From a virus: a DNA stretch of 31,760 nt. The notes under the pieces are model-generated. The model made no database searches and was not told the DNA's origin. It saw only the letters and a program-made list of their open reading frames with translations. Of the stretch, positions 5,237 to 29,191 are shown piece by piece. The stretch is taken from positions 1-31,760 of the IMG/VR virus record IMGVR_UViG_3300006033_000079. One strand, 5' to 3'. A program made the translations under genes and the position numbers. Each line of letters begins with the position of its first letter. Position 1 is the stretch's first letter.

Positions 5237-5649
5237 GCGAGTCAGCCAATCAAAATCACATTCGCCGCGTCCAGCACGACAAGGGCGATCGGTTGTTCCG
5301 CAATAATCGTGGCGCCCTGCTCGACAAGCGCGACAAGCCCGTCCGCTTCGGTCTGGCGAACGATACGGTCGCAGAGGGCGAGCAGTTAAAGTCGGGCGAC
5401 CTGATCGGCTGGGAGACGCGGCTAATAACCCCCGATATGGTCGGCACGCATGTTGCCGTCTTCAAGTCGATCGAAGTCAAGCCGGACGGCTGGAAACCGC
5501 CGGGCGTCGGGCCTGTCAAAGACGCGCGCGGCAAGCTGACTGCCTACGGGCATTTTCTCGGTCAGAAAGCATGGGCGGACTTAGTGAACGACGAGGGCGG
5601 CGTGGCTGGCTTTATGATCGATCCGGATAGAGGGTTTGAGGACGTATGA
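5233..5649 (+). CDS. VRR-NUC-like nuclease
   Basis: A 138-residue protein with the layout of phage VRR-NUC (PD-(D/E)XK) nucleases: a basic RLFRNNRGALLD segment (20-31), then RPVRFGL-like KPVRFGL, the GDLIGW motif (55-60, usually S-D-L-I-G-W), the strand with the catalytic E-V-K (IEVK, 80-83) and a downstream Q111 before the helix Q-K-A-W-A-D-L-V, ending in GGVAGF. Such enzymes act on branched DNA, for instance Holliday-junction resolution, which fits between the helicase and methyltransferase genes. It lacks an HTH or other extra domain. Starts and ends are coupled by ATGA overlaps. The assignment is from motifs; substrate is inferred. Confidence 0.75.
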   Translation: MSESANQNHIRRVQHDKGDRLFRNNRGALLDKRDKPVRFGLANDTVAEGEQLKSGDLIGWETRLITPDMVGTHVAVFKSIEVKPDGWKPPGVGPVKDARGKLTAYGHFLGQKAWADLVNDEGGVAGFMIDPDRGFEDV

Positions 5650-7004
5650 CGACGACTTGGGAACTGCACGAAATGGACTGTCGGCTCGCTATGGGAATGC
5701 TGATGGACGCCGATAGCGTCGACAGTATCGTCTGCGACCCGCCGTACGGTCTGTCGAAGGAGCCCGACATGGCCGAGGTCTTGACGCACTGGCTGGCGGG
5801 CGACGACTATACGCACGGCGGAAACGGCTTTATGGGACGTAGCTGGGACTCGTTCGTCCCTGGTCCGTCGGTATGGCGCGAAGCCTATCGTGTTCTGAAG
5901 CCCGGCGGTCATCTGGTCGCGTTTTTCGGGACGCGCACTTACGATCTGGGCGTGTTGGCCCTGCGGCTGGCGGGGTTCGAAATTCGTGATCAGCTTGCAT
6001 GGGTTTTTGGATCGGGGTTCCCTAAGTCGCATGACGCCGCTCAGTCCATCGAAAAACTGCTGACTACCGGAAAAGCCCGCCGTCCCGATCGGGACTTAGG
6101 GGGTTTGCCGCGAAATCGTTTTTCCGGTTCCGAAGAAGGGAATTTGATCGCAAATACGGGCGGTTCCCTCCCCTTGACGACCCCCGAAGCCGCCCAATGG
6201 CAAGGATGGGGAACGGCGCTCAAACCGGCATACGAACCGATCGTCCTTGCCCGCAAGCCGCTGGTCGGGACGGTCGCGCGGAACGTTCTGTCGCATGGTA
6301 CGGGGGCGCTTAATATCGATGGGTGCCGAGTAGGGACGGAAGGCGAGGTCATTACTGCAACACGAAATATTGCCCTAGGTTCGTCTGGGTCGGGGGTATT
6401 TGGCGCAGCGACCGTACCGGGGGTTTACGAGCAGAAAGCGGGCGGAAGATGGCCCGCAAACCTAGCGCACGACGGGTCGCCGGAAGTGCTGGCGGAATTT
6501 CCGAATACCGCCGCGTCCAAGCGTGCGACCGTGACGAGCAAACCCGGAGAGGTTTACGGGGGCGGGCAAGGTCTGCCCGCCCATACCGGCGAATACGGCT
6601 ATGACGAGCCGGCGGGGAGTGCCGCGCGCTATTTTTACTGCGCCAAAGCGAGCAAGTCCGACCGTAACGAAGGGCTCGACGATCTGCCCGAGCAGCCCAG
6701 CGCCGCCAGTGAGTTTCGCCCTAACCATACCGAAGGCGCGGCGGCCGGCGAGGATGGCAATCCCTATGGTCGCTGGTCGCCCGTGCGCAACACGCATCCG
6801 ACGGTCAAACCGACGGCGCTGATGCAATGGCTCGTACGGCTGGTCACGCCGCCGGGCGGCCTCGTACTCGACCCGTTCACGGGTTCGGGCAGCACCGGCA
6901 AAGCGGCCATGCTCGAGGGCTTTTCGTTTGTCGGGTGCGAGATGGACCCGGATTATGCGAGGATTGCGCGACTGCGAATTGACCATGCCGTCAATAGCCG
7001 CTAA
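5646..7004 (+). CDS. DNA methyltransferase, beta class (DPPY), probably N6-adenine
   Basis: A 452-residue DNA amino-methyltransferase. Catalytic DPPY is at 31-34 and the AdoMet motif DPFTGSGSTG at 409-418; motif IV before motif I marks the beta class. DPPY is typical of N6-adenine enzymes. Other family features are FFGTRTYD, FGSGFPKSHD and NTHPTVKP. The 130-330 region is glycine-rich and probably carries target recognition. It is the last gene of the 4385-7004 operon and differs clearly from the 1687 enzyme, so the two probably modify different sequences. Its last codons (V-N-S-R-stop) contain the palindromic promoter at 6978-7007. Confidence 0.92.
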   Translation: MTTTWELHEMDCRLAMGMLMDADSVDSIVCDPPYGLSKEPDMAEVLTHWLAGDDYTHGGNGFMGRSWDSFVPGPSVWREAYRVLKPGGHLVAFFGTRTYDLGVLALRLAGFEIRDQLAWVFGSGFPKSHDAAQSIEKLLTTGKARRPDRDLGGLPRNRFSGSEEGNLIANTGGSLPLTTPEAAQWQGWGTALKPAYEPIVLARKPLVGTVARNVLSHGTGALNIDGCRVGTEGEVITATRNIALGSSGSGVFGAATVPGVYEQKAGGRWPANLAHDGSPEVLAEFPNTAASKRATVTSKPGEVYGGGQGLPAHTGEYGYDEPAGSAARYFYCAKASKSDRNEGLDDLPEQPSAASEFRPNHTEGAAAGEDGNPYGRWSPVRNTHPTVKPTALMQWLVRLVTPPGGLVLDPFTGSGSTGKAAMLEGFSFVGCEMDPDYARIARLRIDHAVNSR

Positions 7005-14006: not shown

Positions 14007-15737
14007 GTGGCCTTTGGCAATATCGGTAACGCGGGAACGGCGGTAGGCTCAACGTCCGCCTCGTCTTTCACGCTCACCACGACCAGCAACAGTTTCAATG
14101 CGGCCAGCGGTCGCTTTGGGATATTGCGGGTTGCCATCGATAATATCTCGACGACGGACGGGCCTTCAAACGACGTTGTCAGCGTCACCGGGGGCAACGG
14201 GACGTGGACGAAGCTGGGGGAATATACCAACGCTAACGCGGGCGGCGGAAACGGGGTCACGGTCGCGCTTTGGGTATTCAATCCGGATGCCAACAACGCG
14301 GTCGGCACGGTTTTCACGATCAACCTGTCGGGCAATACGGTTGATAAGTCGGCCCGTTTCTGGATTCACAGCTGCACGGTCGGTCAAAGCGTCCGAGACG
14401 CGGCCTCCCCGGTTTATAATTCGGTCGATGCGTCGAACGACTTTGGCTCTTGCGCGATTTCAGGTCTGACCAGCAAGGAATATCTGTTCGTCTCCGCGCT
14501 GGGCAAGGAGGCCAACACCACCACGACGATTACACCGTCATCGGGATTCGTCGCGGTCGCTACGCTCCGGTCGCGCAACAATGCGTCTGCGGTCGTTTCG
14601 GCGGGTGAGTACGACATTCTCACCGCGACAGGAGCGACGTCGAACCCGACGCTTGCGGTGTCCGGCGATGCGGTCAACGTCTTTGTCGCGCTCGAGGAAT
14701 ACACGCCGAGCAGCGGCATTTCGGGCAGTGCCAGCGGCGATCTTCCGCTAACGGGCAGCGCGGTCGGTACCGCAAGCGTGTCGGGCTCGGCCAGCGGCAC
14801 TTTCGATATCACCGGCTCGTCGACGGCAACCGCCCTTATCGTGGGCCTAAGCAGCGGCTCGCTCCCCCTATCCGGCAATGCGACGGGATCCGTCGGTTCG
14901 ACCATAACGGGCAGTGCTGCCGGCACGCTGCCGTTAGCGGGCAGTGCGGCCGCAACCGTCAGCATCGCGGGACTCGCCGCAGGTTCGTTGCCGCTGACCG
15001 GCTCGGCCGTTGCGTCGATGATCGTGCGGGGGTTGGCCGACGGGGCGTTCCCCCTGTCTGGCAGTGCGAGCGGCAACGTTCAAGTCGCGGGGACGGCCGA
15101 CGGAACTTTGCCGCTGACGGGCTCGTCGACGACCATATCCACCATTACGGGTAGCGCGGCCGGCACATTGTCCCTAACCGGAGCGTCGAGCGCGATCGTC
15201 GTCGTATACGGGCAGGCTGACGGGATCTTGCCGCTGACGGGCGAGGCGACCGGCGGGGGCAGTACGCCCGTCCCTATCCCCGCGGCCCGCATCATCACGC
15301 CGTCGGCTCAACAGACCGTCTTGACCCTCGAGGCGATCGAACGGTTCGTCATCCCGACCCAGCAATCGACCATCGTGACGCCCGACGCGCAATCGGTTAT
15401 TGTGACGCCGCCGCAGCGATGCTGCACGATCATCCTGGCCGGTTACGAGGAAGTGAACATGAGCAGCGAATATTTCCAATGGCCGGACAAGCTGGCGCCC
15501 GCCGTCATTTTTTATGGGATCGATTGGGTGAACCGACTCGGCGAAGCGACGATCGTCTCGCATGATTTCGAACTGGTCAGCGGGGGCGTAACCCTCACCC
15601 CGCGGTCGGCCAGCGGCACGGAAACGAGCGTATCGATTGCAGGCGGCGCGGCGGGATCGATCGCCGTCATCATTGCCAGCGTGGTCGCCAGTGACGGCGA
15701 AACGCACGCCATCCGGGTATCGATTGATATTGCATGA
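14007..15737 (+). CDS. Repeat-rich structural protein with fibre-adaptor-like C-terminus
   Basis: A 576-residue protein starting at GTG 14007. Residues 1-230 form a Thr/Ser/Asn-rich beta domain. Residues about 240-420 are nine repeats of about 20 residues (consensus G-S-A-x-G-x-L-P-L-T-G-S-A), likely a beta solenoid or fibrous stalk. A short ITP/IVTP-rich linker follows (430-470). Residues 485-576 (FQWPDKLAPAVIFYGIDWVN...) resemble small phage fibre-tail adaptor proteins. An internal ATG at 15459 (residue 485) after GAGGA could make this part separately. It ends at an ATGA overlap with terminase large subunit. Tail-fibre or virion decoration role is inferred. Confidence 0.8.
   Translation: MAFGNIGNAGTAVGSTSASSFTLTTTSNSFNAASGRFGILRVAIDNISTTDGPSNDVVSVTGGNGTWTKLGEYTNANAGGGNGVTVALWVFNPDANNAVGTVFTINLSGNTVDKSARFWIHSCTVGQSVRDAASPVYNSVDASNDFGSCAISGLTSKEYLFVSALGKEANTTTTITPSSGFVAVATLRSRNNASAVVSAGEYDILTATGATSNPTLAVSGDAVNVFVALEEYTPSSGISGSASGDLPLTGSAVGTASVSGSASGTFDITGSSTATALIVGLSSGSLPLSGNATGSVGSTITGSAAGTLPLAGSAAATVSIAGLAAGSLPLTGSAVASMIVRGLADGAFPLSGSASGNVQVAGTADGTLPLTGSSTTISTITGSAAGTLSLTGASSAIVVVYGQADGILPLTGEATGGGSTPVPIPAARIITPSAQQTVLTLEAIERFVIPTQQSTIVTPDAQSVIVTPPQRCCTIILAGYEEVNMSSEYFQWPDKLAPAVIFYGIDWVNRLGEATIVSHDFELVSGGVTLTPRSASGTETSVSIAGGAAGSIAVIIASVVASDGETHAIRVSIDIA
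14724..15266 (+). repeat. Nine 60-base coding repeats
   Basis: Within the 14007 gene, codons about 240-420 encode nine tandem units of 20 (once 21) residues based on G-S-A-x-G-x-L-P-L-T-G-S-A followed by a variable hydrophobic half. The units diverge in sequence at DNA level, so the repeats are old and kept by selection on the protein. Confidence 0.8.
15459..15737 (+). CDS. Possible internally initiated fibre-adaptor protein
   Basis: In frame with the 14007 gene, ATG 15459 is preceded by GAGGA with 7-base spacing, and would give a 92-residue protein (MSSEYFQWPDKLAPAVIFYG...) the size of free-standing phage fibre-tail adaptor proteins. It has a D-W near the start and a G-G-x-x-G turn late, as these have. 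Whether it is made separately, as a fused domain, or both, cannot be told from the sequence. Confidence 0.45.
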   Translation: MSSEYFQWPDKLAPAVIFYGIDWVNRLGEATIVSHDFELVSGGVTLTPRSASGTETSVSIAGGAAGSIAVIIASVVASDGETHAIRVSIDIA

Positions 15738-22569: not shown

Positions 22570-23832
22570 ATGATTCTTCTCGCAATGGACCGCGCGCCAA
22601 GTGTCCGCAGCTTCGATGCGGACGGCCGGCTGCACGTCGCGCGCAGCAATATCAGCAAGGCGAACGTCTGCCCGTACCTTGGCCGTGAGATACCGGGCTG
22701 GGAGACGCTCGGGCTTGACGGCGACTCAGTCTATCAGTTGCTGCGCGATCCGGAGGAACTGGCGCGCGCCGCCCCGACCTTCAATAATTTGCAGGTGCTT
22801 TCAGAGCATGTCCCGGTAACCAGCTGGGACGACGAAAGCCATATGGCGGAAATTACCGTCGGTTCGACCGGCACGGACGCGACGTTCGTTGACGGCTATT
22901 TGACCAACAGTCTGGTCGTCTGGGCGCGTCGTTCGATCGACGGGATCGAGCGCGACGAACAGCGTGAACTGTCGTCGGCTTATCGGTATCGGGCAGATAT
23001 GACGCCCGGCGAATATAATGGCGTTGCATATGACGGAATTATGCGCGATATTATCGGCAACCATGTGGCGCTTGTTTTTGAGGGTCGCGCGGGACCGGAC
23101 GTTCTAGTTGGAGACGAACAACCCATGGCCTTCAAGTCAAAACGGGCGCTGATGGTGGCGGGGAGCCTTAGCGGCCTTCTTCGTCCGCATCTTGCCGCAG
23201 ACGCCAAGCTCGATATTTCGGGCGCCCTCGCCGGTCTGACCGACCAGACGATCAAAAAGGACGGGGCCGTTAAGGCACTGGCCGATAAGGTCTTCGGTCT
23301 GGTCCAGCCGCAACTGGCCGCGGACGCCGCGCTGACCGTCGCTGACGTGACGATCGCGATTGATGCCGCTTCGGACATGCCGCTCGGCGAGGACGAAGAC
23401 CCCGACGTCGCGGAAGACGAAGACCCCGACGTTGCCGAGGATGAAGATCCGGACGTCGCGGAAGACGAAGACCCCGACGCCACGCCCGCCATGGACGCGG
23501 CGACCGTCAAAGCGCTGGTCGAAAAAGGCCGCAAGGCGGCACTCGCCGATGCCGCCGCGATCCGCACCGCCGAACGCGAAGTCACGCCCGTGACCGGCGA
23601 ACTGGCGGTTGCTTTCGACAGCGCCGCGGACGTCTATCAGGAAGGCCTGAAGGCGCTCGGCGTCGATCTGACCGGCTTGCCCCGTTCGTCGTTCGCCGCG
23701 ACCTTCCGCGCCGTCCACGCCAGCCGCTCGGCCGCTCCGAAGGTCGCGCAGGACGCGGCGACGGTCAGCACGGCTCGCGATAATTTCAACAAGCGGTTCC
23801 CCAATCGCGCGACGATCCTGAAAGGGGTTTAA
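22570..23832 (+). CDS. Prohead protease / scaffold, DUF2213-type
   Basis: A 420-residue protein. The first 200 residues match the DUF2213 family (RSFDADGRLHVARSNISKANVCPYLGREIP..., YRADMTPGEYNGVAYDGIMRDIIGNHVALV), thought to be capsid-maturation proteases encoded before the capsid genes; H at NHVAL and a preceding Ser are possible catalytic residues. Residues 274-305 are four EDEDPDVA units, an acidic linker. The helical C-terminal part (about 310-420) is scaffold-like. The ATG at 22570 follows AAAGG; ATG 22543 overlapping the tailspike stop is an alternative. Function is by family and position. Confidence 0.82.
   Translation: MILLAMDRAPSVRSFDADGRLHVARSNISKANVCPYLGREIPGWETLGLDGDSVYQLLRDPEELARAAPTFNNLQVLSEHVPVTSWDDESHMAEITVGSTGTDATFVDGYLTNSLVVWARRSIDGIERDEQRELSSAYRYRADMTPGEYNGVAYDGIMRDIIGNHVALVFEGRAGPDVLVGDEQPMAFKSKRALMVAGSLSGLLRPHLAADAKLDISGALAGLTDQTIKKDGAVKALADKVFGLVQPQLAADAALTVADVTIAIDAASDMPLGEDEDPDVAEDEDPDVAEDEDPDVAEDEDPDATPAMDAATVKALVEKGRKAALADAAAIRTAEREVTPVTGELAVAFDSAADVYQEGLKALGVDLTGLPRSSFAATFRAVHASRSAAPKVAQDAATVSTARDNFNKRFPNRATILKGV
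23389..23484 (+). repeat. Four tandem 24-base coding repeats (EDEDPDVA)
   Basis: Units at 23389-23412, 23413-23436, 23437-23460 and 23461-23484, nearly identical (consensus GARGACGAAGACCCCGACGT plus four bases), in the 22570 gene. The near identity suggests recent duplication. They encode a very acidic linker between the protease-like and scaffold-like parts. Confidence 0.9.
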
Positions 23833-26788: not shown

Positions 26789-27321
26789 CGCTGACCGGTG
26801 GCGAAAAGCTCGAGCGACGACTCGCCGCACTATCCCAATCGATCGCGAAAGGCGGCAAGCTCCGAGTCGGCTTCCTCGAGGGATCGACCTATCCGGACGG
26901 CACGCCCGTCGCGATGGTCGCGGCAACGCAAAATTTCGGCGCGCCCGGCGCAGGCATTCCGCCCCGCCCGTTCTTTAATAAATTCATCGCCGATAATGTG
27001 GACGAGTGGGGCGCGCAGCTTTCGCGGTTGCTTCAGGGCTCGAATTTCGACGTCGAAAAGTCGCTGAACATCATGGGCATGGGGATGGTCGGCCAGTTGC
27101 AGACCGCCATTATCGAGACGAACGACCCGCCGCTGTCGGACGTAACGTTGCTGCTCCGCTCGCGCTTCCCGACTGGCGATTACGAGGCGGCCGACGTATG
27201 GCAGGCCTTTGCGGACGTGGCGGCCGGCGAGACTGCGAGCGGCGGCAGTAGCAAGCCGCTCGTCTGGTCCGGCACGATGTTGAACGCGGTCGATTATGAA
27301 GTGGTGACAGACGATGGTTAA
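26776..27321 (+). CDS. Neck / tail-completion protein (HK97 gp10-like group)
   Basis: A 181-residue protein with the hallmark pattern K-L-R-V-G-F-L-E-G-S-T-Y-P-D-G-T-P-V-A (about 28-46), then Q-N-F-G-A-P...I-P-P-R-P-F-F (about 54-72). This pattern is found in phage virion-morphogenesis and tail-completion proteins that sit between connector and tail terminator genes, as here. The C-terminal half is helical and Gly/Ser-rich. Exact position in the neck is inferred. Confidence 0.78.
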   Translation: MATITLTGGEKLERRLAALSQSIAKGGKLRVGFLEGSTYPDGTPVAMVAATQNFGAPGAGIPPRPFFNKFIADNVDEWGAQLSRLLQGSNFDVEKSLNIMGMGMVGQLQTAIIETNDPPLSDVTLLLRSRFPTGDYEAADVWQAFADVAAGETASGGSSKPLVWSGTMLNAVDYEVVTDDG

Positions 27322-27697
27322 CTTGCGTTCCAGGGCAAACGTGCTGACCAGCCGGATCAATCCGAACTTGTCGATCGGCTATCGCCGCTATGCGGGCATT
27401 GCCGTCGGCGCCGACGGTACACAGACCCCGCAATACGACCCGCAGACGCCCGTCGTCGCGCAGGTCCAGTCGCTCGGCAAAAAAGAGGTCGACCATCTGT
27501 CATCGCTGCGGATCTCAAATTGCGAGCGAATGGTTTATGTGAACTTCCAGCTTCAGGCGACCGACCGAGTCGCGCAGACCGGCGGCGATCTGGTCGTGTT
27601 CGAAGGCGCGGTCTGGCAGGTCGAAGCGATTCTCGAGGGATGGAGTACGGCGGGCTGGTCGCGCGGGGCTGTCAGTAAGCAGATGGACGCTCCTTAG
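27314..27697 (+). CDS. Neck/collar-type phage protein
   Basis: A 127-residue beta-rich protein overlapping the previous gene by 8 bases. Sequence features (LSIGYRRYAGIAVGADGTQTPQYDP, then R-M-V-Y-V-N-F-Q-L-Q-A and GDLVVFEGAVWQVEAILEGWS) suggest a small barrel such as those in phage head-tail joining proteins. It is the last rightward gene before the leftward cassette, ending four bases inside it. Assignment rests on position. Confidence 0.65.
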   Translation: MVNLRSRANVLTSRINPNLSIGYRRYAGIAVGADGTQTPQYDPQTPVVAQVQSLGKKEVDHLSSLRISNCERMVYVNFQLQATDRVAQTGGDLVVFEGAVWQVEAILEGWSTAGWSRGAVSKQMDAP

Positions 27698-28161
27698 CCG
27701 CTGCGGATATCCCAAAGCACCCGTTCGACCCCGCCGTTCCCGACGGCATCGCGCATTGCTCGCTTTTCTGGATCTCCCGTACTTTCGGCCCAGCTTTTTC
27801 GAGCAGCCCTGCTAGCTACTTGCCGCCAGCCAACCGCCCGTAGGGACGCCCCGGTTTCGTCGGCTTGCGTGTACGTCAAGCAACGTCGATAGCCCATCGC
27901 CTTAGCGGCCCGCCAGATCGCGCCGTAAAGCATCGAATTGGCGTTCATTGTGCCGTCCGTGCAGGTTCGGTTTACCTCGAGCGTCAGACCGTCATCAAAA
28001 TGACGAGCGATCGGACGGCCTGCGCAAGCGACACCGACCAGCGTTTCGCCGTCGTATATAGCCACGCTAAACTTGTGACCGCGCGGCGGCTTGTTATGGC
28101 GGTGATGGTCGGCAATGAACGCGCAGGCGGCGCGAAGCGTGATGGGCCGAATCTCTAGCAC
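27694..28161 (-). CDS. GNAT-like acetyltransferase, XF1762-type
   Basis: A 155-residue leftward protein of the XF1762 group, related to GNAT acetyltransferases. Conserved blocks: L-R-A-A-C-A-F-I-A-D-H-H-R-H-N-K-P-P-R-G-H-K-F (about 9-31), G-V-A-C-A-G-R-P-I-A-R-H-F-D-D-G (about 43-58), L-E-V-N-R-T-C-T-D-G-T, N-S-M-L-Y-G-A-I-W-R-A-A-K-A-M-G-Y-R-R (about 74-93) and G-A-S-L-R-A-V-G-W-R. These are common as accessory genes in phages. It overlaps the C2H2 gene by 7 bases (start 28161). The acetyl-acceptor is unknown; modifying a host or defence protein is only speculation. Confidence 0.82.
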   Translation of the reverse strand: MLEIRPITLRAACAFIADHHRHNKPPRGHKFSVAIYDGETLVGVACAGRPIARHFDDGLTLEVNRTCTDGTMNANSMLYGAIWRAAKAMGYRRCLTYTQADETGASLRAVGWRQVASRAARKSWAESTGDPEKRAMRDAVGNGGVERVLWDIRSG

Positions 28162-28319
28162 GGCTTATCGCTCTTAGTTACGGGACGTCGTCTAGCAGCA
28201 CGCGCCGACCGCTGGCGCTCCCGGTCCGCCTCGTGACGGACAATATGATTGGTTGCGAGCGATAACGTATTGCTCGAATAGCGACAGCCTTTGACCGTGC
28301 AGCGGTATTTATCGAACAT
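28155..28319 (-). CDS. C2H2 zinc-finger-like protein
   Basis: A 54-residue leftward protein. Residues about 5-29 have a C2H2 finger pattern: Y-R-C-x4-C, then 12 residues and H-x3-H (C7, C12, H25, H29; the C7-C12 spacing is C-x4-C). The remainder is strongly basic (ERQRSARAARRRPVTKSDK). The start chosen is ATG 28319, 4 bases after GGGGGA and overlapping the previous TGA. A longer reading upstream is possible but has no ribosome site. It may bind DNA or RNA; C2H2 fingers are known in alphaproteobacterial Ros/MucR proteins. Function is inferred from the motif only. Confidence 0.7.
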   Translation of the reverse strand: MFDKYRCTVKGCRYSSNTLSLATNHIVRHEADRERQRSARAARRRPVTKSDKPC

Positions 28320-28561
28320 CAATCCCCCAAAGCGGCCAGAACCGCAGCACCATATGTCGTAAGACCGAAAGTCCGCCATCCTTCCGAACTACGGGGCCCT
28401 TCGCACGTCAAAGGTGGGCGGGTCTTGGTGCCAGAAAGCAACCTGACCGCGGTAGGCTCCCCGCAACCGAGAAACCTCCATTCTTCACGACAAAGTGACC
28501 GAAGGGTCGATTGTTGCCCCCGAGTGAGTAGGACGGCGGTTTCAGCGGGAGTTCGGAACAT
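28319..28561 (-). CDS. Small basic protein of unknown function
   Basis: An 80-residue leftward protein, first of the cassette. ATG 28561 is preceded by AGGAGA with 7-base spacing, a strong ribosome site. The helical N-terminus (ETAVLLTRGQQSTLRSLCREEW) and the C-terminal R-T-F-G-L-T-T-Y-G-A-A-V-L-A-A-L suggest a winged-helix-like fold: the latter resembles the end helix of small phage HTH proteins (L-T-x-x-G-x-x-x-L). DNA binding is therefore possible. The stop overlaps the C2H2 start. Confidence 0.65.
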   Translation of the reverse strand: MFRTPAETAVLLTRGQQSTLRSLCREEWRFLGCGEPTAVRLLSGTKTRPPLTCEGPRSSEGWRTFGLTTYGAAVLAALGD

Positions 28562-28593
28562 AGAGCGTCTCCTAAAGGCGTTTCGTTGCGGCC

Positions 28594-28621
28594 ACCTTAC
28601 GCATATTGACCGTCCCGTCAA
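28594..28621 (-). promoter_or_regulatory. Leftward promoter of the three-gene cassette
   Basis: On the minus strand TTGACG (28621-28616), 16-base spacer, TAAGGT (28599-28594). The -35 is the right half of ATTGAC-CGTCCC-GTCAAT (28605-28622). It faces the gene starting at 28561. The same palindrome supplies the -35 of the rightward promoter, so the two are controlled together. Confidence 0.6.
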
Positions 28622-28634
28622 TACCTATTTTTAC
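28606..28634 (+). promoter_or_regulatory. Rightward promoter for the tail operon
   Basis: TTGACC (28606-28611), then 17 bases and TTTTAC (28629-28634), or 15 bases and TATTTT (28627-28632). The -10 is less clear than in the other promoters, but the palindrome ATTGAC-CGTCCC-GTCAAT (28605-28622) is perfect. It would transcribe the genes from 28661 on. Confidence 0.5.
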
Positions 28635-28660
28635 CCCGCGTCTTGTCGTATGCTCGCGAT

Positions 28661-29191
28661 ATGCCCGCAACGATCGACCTTACCGAGCAAGCCGTTTTTA
28701 TCGGCCTGCGCGCGTTCGTTCTCGACGTGCTGCCGGTCGGCCCGACCAACGTCGTCAAGGGCCAAGCGAACCGCGTGCCGATGCCGGTCGGGCCGGACTT
28801 CGTGGTCTTGACGCCGACGGGCCGCGCGCGCCTCGCCACCAACGCCCGAACCTACGTCCCGTCCGACGACCCGGCGCCCGCAGACGGCACGCGCCTGACG
28901 CAACAGCAAACCCGGCTCGACGTGCAGATCGACGTGTACGGGCCGGCGGCGGCCGAAAACGTGCAGATTGTCAGCACGTTGCTTCGCGATGCCTACGGCT
29001 GCGATTATCTAAGGCCCCATCTGGTCCAGCCGCTCTATCTGGGCGACCCTCGGCAATTGCCGCTCGTCACGGGCGAACAGCAATACTTGGCGCGGTGGAT
29101 GCTCGGCGCGACCTTGCAATTCAATCCTACGGTATCGACAAGCCAACAGTTTGCCGATATTGTGGACGTCACTCTCGTGGAGGCGGATTAA
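28661..29191 (+). CDS. Tail terminator / neck protein (LIC_12616-like)
   Basis: A 176-residue protein. The start chosen is ATG 28661. The typical pattern (LRAFVLDVLPVGPTNVVKGQANRVPMPVGPDFVVLTP, RLDVQIDVYGPAAAENVQIVSTLLRDAYGCDYL) is that of phage neck-terminator proteins encoded just before a DUF3383 sheath. Such proteins close the end of the tail tube for head joining. The family assignment is fairly clear from the pattern. Confidence 0.8.
   Translation: MPATIDLTEQAVFIGLRAFVLDVLPVGPTNVVKGQANRVPMPVGPDFVVLTPTGRARLATNARTYVPSDDPAPADGTRLTQQQTRLDVQIDVYGPAAAENVQIVSTLLRDAYGCDYLRPHLVQPLYLGDPRQLPLVTGEQQYLARWMLGATLQFNPTVSTSQQFADIVDVTLVEAD

Follow-up and report, generated by a model that had tools for sequence, protein, structure and literature searches.

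A probable moron cassette with a Mom-like gene behind a putative palindromic promoter in the neck operon of a tailed phage

The Mom protein of phage Mu modifies adenines in DNA, the product being a carbamoylmethyl modification, and Com is the translational activator of mom in the same phage. Accessory genes of tailed phages have been described as morons, or 'units of more DNA' (PMC4378225). Here we analysed a stretch of viral DNA, referred to as the window, which is a complete virus record in IMG/VR (31,760 bases). Judged against its closest relative (IMGVR_UViG_3300028809_000019, hereafter G001; 50,088 bases, 82% DNA identity), the window represents an incomplete tailed-phage genome, in which genes for a contractile tail (DUF3383 sheath) are found. 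Three genes on the minus strand interrupt its neck operon at the junction of the collar and terminator genes (Table 1), exactly where the initial annotation had placed them. We consider it probable that these genes make up an interchangeable moron cassette with a shared palindromic promoter, and that in this phage the cassette delivers anti-restriction DNA modification. Outside this region, two features of the window were recorded: a 24-nt tandem repeat at 23388-23503 that encodes an acidic repeat of the EDPDVAED type, and an open reading frame of 576 aa (14007-15737, plus strand) directly 5' of the terminase gene, for which there was no PHROG match.

Table 1. Features at the collar-terminator junction of the window.
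Feature	Position	Strand	Remarks
Left flank, head/collar protein gene	27314..27697	+	phrog_1912, PF22755, E217_gp28
Gene 3, predicted XF1762-family/Mom-like DNA modification protein	27694..28161	-	155 aa; GTG start
Gene 2, C2H2-type finger with basic tail	28155..28319	-	54 aa; ATG at 28319
Gene 1	28319..28561	-	80 aa; ATG at 28561; AGGAG at 28569-28573, 7 nt 5' of the ATG
Putative leftward promoter/operator element, GGTATTGACGGGACGGTCAAT	28605..28625	-	21 bp; identical copies in four other viral contigs
Control region between cassette and terminator gene	28605..28656	.	52 bp; 81% identity to another cassette site of G001
Right flank, neck terminator gene	28661..29191	+	PF23961 (95.5 bits), phrog_1876

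The three genes are closely packed. Genes 1 and 2 overlap in the sequence TGATG and genes 2 and 3 in GTGCTAG. At the other end of the cassette, the collar gene and gene 3 converge, with their stop codons (TAG and TAA, respectively) overlapping tail to tail in TTAG, and a terminator scan gave no intrinsic terminator at the cassette end near 27694. The GC content at third codon positions is 0.53-0.65 in the cassette genes, compared to 0.72-0.83 in the flanking genes.

The collar-terminator junction was compared with that of related phages. In 16 relatives, all of them more distant than G001, the two genes are separated by little or no insert (-6 to 68 bp in 15 of them, 205 bp in the other), whereas the gap measures about 1 kb in both the window and G001. 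The junction in G001 likewise carries an antisense cassette behind the same promoter-like element, consisting of a phrog_16527 gene (144 aa) in the place of gene 1, the finger gene, and a phrog_9995 gene (133 aa) that replaces gene 3; no Mom-like gene was detected in this phage. Inside the cassette, the finger gene (28186-28327) is the only part with DNA similarity between the two phages; beyond it, similarity resumes at 28588 with the control region. The small gap in the 16 relatives and the different cargo in G001 therefore show that DNA was inserted in one lineage and that its cargo has been exchanged.

Gene 3 scored 199.9 bits against the NCBIfam model of XF1762 (NF045478; cut-off 50) and matched PHROG 1384, 'Mom-like DNA modification protein' (phrog_1384), with an E value of 2.3e-42. 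The match to the Pfam family Mom (PF25680) remained under the cut-off of 27.1 (23.9 bits, E 3.9e-5). Relatives of gene 3 are present in 33 phage records and in 24 viral contigs (56-79% identity in the contigs), and the XF1762-family relatives that were retrieved share 52-79% identity across nearly the full length. These many homologues make a very strong case that gene 3 is coding. When searching host genomes, one match was found among the genomes scanned, in Streptomyces. An AlphaFold model based on 17 family members reached a pLDDT of 86.2, and its top Foldseek match in the PDB was Mom of phage Mu (8bv8, E 7e-9, TM 0.74), with RimI and other GNAT acetyltransferases ranking behind it. The model points to a GNAT fold of the Mom type. 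As we read the alignment, the acetyl-CoA loop R/QxxGxG/A after the E-x-N-R strand is absent in both Mom and the gene 3 family, and a sequence containing N-S is found where this loop usually lies. The invariant S76 of gene 3 aligns with S122 of Mu Mom when the alignment is extended without gaps from E-x-N-R, in which a shift of two residues is possible; the residue that is altered in the inactive structure of Mu Mom is S124. Similarity between gene 3 and Mu Mom at the sequence level is weak (hhalign probability 22%), and the family profile gave no meaningful match to PDB sequences; the link to Mom was drawn from the folds and from PHROG and Pfam.

Based on the family scores, the fold and the absence of the loop, the best reading of gene 3 would be a Mom-like, DNA-modifying protein with an anti-restriction role. 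Its chemistry we can only infer, because the Pfam Mom match is below the cut-off and the sequence match to Mu Mom is weak. In place of the undefined GNAT-like enzyme of the initial annotation we find a named family with a Mom-like structure; the suggested anti-defence role gains support from this predicted enzyme. Two DNA methyltransferase genes (phrog_67) are found elsewhere in the window, at 1546-2598 and 5646-7004 on the plus strand, so that a Mom-like gene would extend a DNA-modification set already present in the phage.

Alternatively, gene 3 could be an ordinary GNAT acetyltransferase that acts on a protein or a small molecule (such as a toxin or a host factor) and not on DNA. The GNAT fold, the many acetyltransferases among the structural matches at E values of about 1e-7, and the fact that several annotators label homologues as acetyltransferases are all in line with this. 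However, the best structural match is Mu Mom, PHROG 1384 is Mom-like, the acetyl-CoA loop motif is absent, and DNA methyltransferases are encoded in other cassettes under the same control element. We therefore regard an ordinary acetyltransferase as unlikely.

The 21-bp element in front of the cassette reads on the minus strand from 28625 to 28605 and contains the palindrome TTGAC-N6-GTCAA at 28606-28621. A -35-like TTGACG lies inside the element, and a possible -10-like TAAGGT is located at 28594-28599 with a spacing of 16. The cassette element was not listed in a sigma-70 scan, and the leftward -10 is weak. When 2.9 million viral contigs were searched, the exact 21-mer was found in only four others, at seven places; variants of the element were present three more times in one phage (G002) and once in a fifth phage. 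The copies and variants head short cassettes. Where the flanking genes were mapped (G001, G002 and G004, but not the fifth phage), the cassettes run antisense and have the element immediately in front of the structural gene that follows. The sites are the collar-terminator junction, the junction of the tape measure gene with its downstream neighbour, two more junctions of tail genes and a position before a gp25-like gene. A cassette with a C5 cytosine methyltransferase gene is found behind the element in all five of these phages (the four contigs with the exact element and the fifth phage). In G002 (L060), four antisense cassettes occupy successive tail-gene junctions, at 1563, 3328, 4640 and 6466, each headed by the palindrome; one of them encodes a C5 cytosine methyltransferase and the rest small proteins, and those scanned matched no PHROG.

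Within the window, the exact palindrome TTGAC-N6-GTCAA occurs five times (4333, 6979, 10550, 10978 and 28606), against an expectation of 0.7 even with one mismatch tolerated. The first four copies lie in the half of the window with the replication genes, several of them just 5' of genes and with a -35-like half, and G001 has counterparts of four of the five at corresponding positions. We infer from these sequences that the element acts throughout the phage as a promoter whose -35 box is overlapped by an operator; if so, the cassettes may be expressed together with non-structural genes. As the element is short, nearly unique and easily searched, it could help to locate more accessory genes, possibly with roles in counter-defence.

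In the moron reading that we favour, about 960 bp of accessory DNA separate the collar gene from the terminator gene as an antisense insertion. Transcription would run leftward from the cassette's own control element and end tail to tail with the collar gene, and the overlap of promoter and operator would keep expression of the cassette separate from that of the late structural operon. Gene 3 would modify the DNA of the phage, as Mu Mom does with adenines, and restriction enzymes would thereby be blocked. Genes 1 and 2 would be small accessory proteins that are co-expressed and translated by coupling. This reading builds on the observed insertion, the swap of cargo at the same site, the presence of the element at other antisense cassettes, and the family of gene 3 with Mom as its nearest fold. 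The unnamed trio becomes in this way a testable anti-restriction cassette, and related phages are seen to swap such cargo at one and the same site, downstream of a common control element. A more far-reaching proposal, which we put forward as speculative and rather doubtful, is that the element-headed antisense cassettes in the late neck and tail operon form a distributed regulon under one palindromic switch. DNA-modification enzymes would then be made on a schedule unlike that of the structural genes, and the finger would be a constant regulator or partner for the enzyme gene that follows it at one site.

In the finger protein encoded by gene 2, the ligands C7-X4-C12-X12-H25-X3-H29 have the C2H2 spacing CX2-4CX12HX3-5H (PF00096). 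The probability of this motif is 4e-4 in composition-shuffled copies of the peptide, and it is present in one of 470 frames of the window. The Pfam model PF00096 did not match the finger of the window and gave 13.3 bits for the G001 copy, below the gathering score of 25.2. The usual hydrophobic core is not kept, the core F and L positions being S16 and A22, and a model from two sequences had a pLDDT of only 62.5, which is too poor for use. A longer reading of 74 aa from 28379 does not have a conserved start. Protein, flank and pattern searches recovered the finger in one other phage, G001, and no relatives were found among phage records and plasmids.

A tiny zinc-binding protein gene that precedes and overlaps a Mom-like gene is the order seen in com-mom, and the finger could accordingly be a translational activator of the downstream gene 3. 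We hold this to be quite improbable. The finger is C2H2-like and Com has CCCC ligands, and homology was rejected since the two proteins show no sequence similarity (BLASTP E 2.9). Moreover, the finger of G001 precedes the phrog_9995 gene, and a search of that phage did not reveal a Mom-like gene. Shuffled copies of the start region of gene 3 fold at least as well as the original (z +1.05), which argues against a regulated or inhibitory RNA structure, and zinc-like reading frames directly 5' of Mom-like genes are not enriched (2 of 22, against a background of 8%). As a separate observation, genes for small or larger proteins with Cys-rich, zinc-ribbon-like motifs immediately precede or overlap Mom-like genes in three contigs (L017, 4714-5004; L047, 2364-2492; L010, 4036-4998), and these are worth a look as Com-like candidates.

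Over its first 45 residues, the finger protein is identical to that of G001 at 44 positions, and the DNA of the stretch shared with G001 is 93% identical. Six codons differ, five of them silently (dN 0.035, dS 0.18), and the probability that six random substitutions in the finger would all be silent is 3.5e-4. Because the changes are almost all silent, the finger is very probably translated. This coding-gene-like pattern, together with the ligand spacing, confirms the small C2H2-type protein of the initial annotation. For the flanking genes, dS is higher than for the finger (0.43-0.56), which over only 45 codons is suggestive of an exchange more recent than that of the backbone. Since it was retained where gene 3 was exchanged, the finger is probably an accessory nucleic-acid-binding protein without a specific tie to gene 3. 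A finger gene that is kept amid replaced neighbours poses a clean question, namely what role a eukaryote-like finger has in a phage.

The same comparison bears on another explanation, according to which genes 1 and 2 are non-functional and the conserved finger DNA serves the cargo only as an anchor for recombination or as a leader. The finger DNA is indeed more similar than the 82% identical backbone and has unrelated DNA on both sides, and for gene 1 no homologues were found in viral contigs, phages or plasmids. However, almost exclusively silent changes fit selection on the protein, and we judge the anchor explanation very unlikely. For gene 1 itself, the case for a coding gene is a positional one, namely the ribosome site, the coupling to gene 2 and the distance from the promoter; its earlier label as 'HTH-like' found no confirmation, as no domain library recognised a helix-turn-helix.

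In none of the 24 viral contigs that carry a Mom-like relative was the finger seen, and the trio was not found together in any relative. The Mom-like gene is thus widespread without the finger, and outside the window the finger was found only in G001, beside other genes. Judged from these searches, the three genes do not form a conserved unit. The dedicated three-gene complex for host takeover or anti-defence that was first proposed would suit the operon-like overlaps and the common promoter-like element, but with no co-occurrence of the trio and with the genes on either side of the finger exchanged, it is hardly credible. What holds from that first interpretation is the antisense insertion, the plausibility of an anti-defence role and the C2H2-type protein, but not the single unit.

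When the locus is set beside described systems, gene 3 is by score a full member of the XF1762 family and PHROG 1384. It differs from the relatives examined in lying antisense in a neck operon beside a C2H2 finger, which those relatives do not have. With com-mom of phage Mu, the cassette shares a gene for a small zinc-binding protein that overlaps the start of a Mom-like gene and a presumed anti-restriction output. In contrast to com-mom, the finger is unrelated to Com and not specific to the Mom-like gene, and no inhibitory RNA structure was seen. The cassette resembles the morons of tailed phages (PMC4378225) in being inserted between genes that are adjacent in relatives, in a composition unlike that of its neighbours and in having an apparent promoter of its own, the -35-like palindromic element shared 5' of such cassettes. 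Unlike these morons, it is multi-gene and antisense, and no intrinsic terminator was found. Moreover, the accessory regions studied there had no common flanking sequence (PMC4378225), whereas here a single control element recurs at several cassettes located at different sites. The kind of system is known, but this arrangement is new to us.
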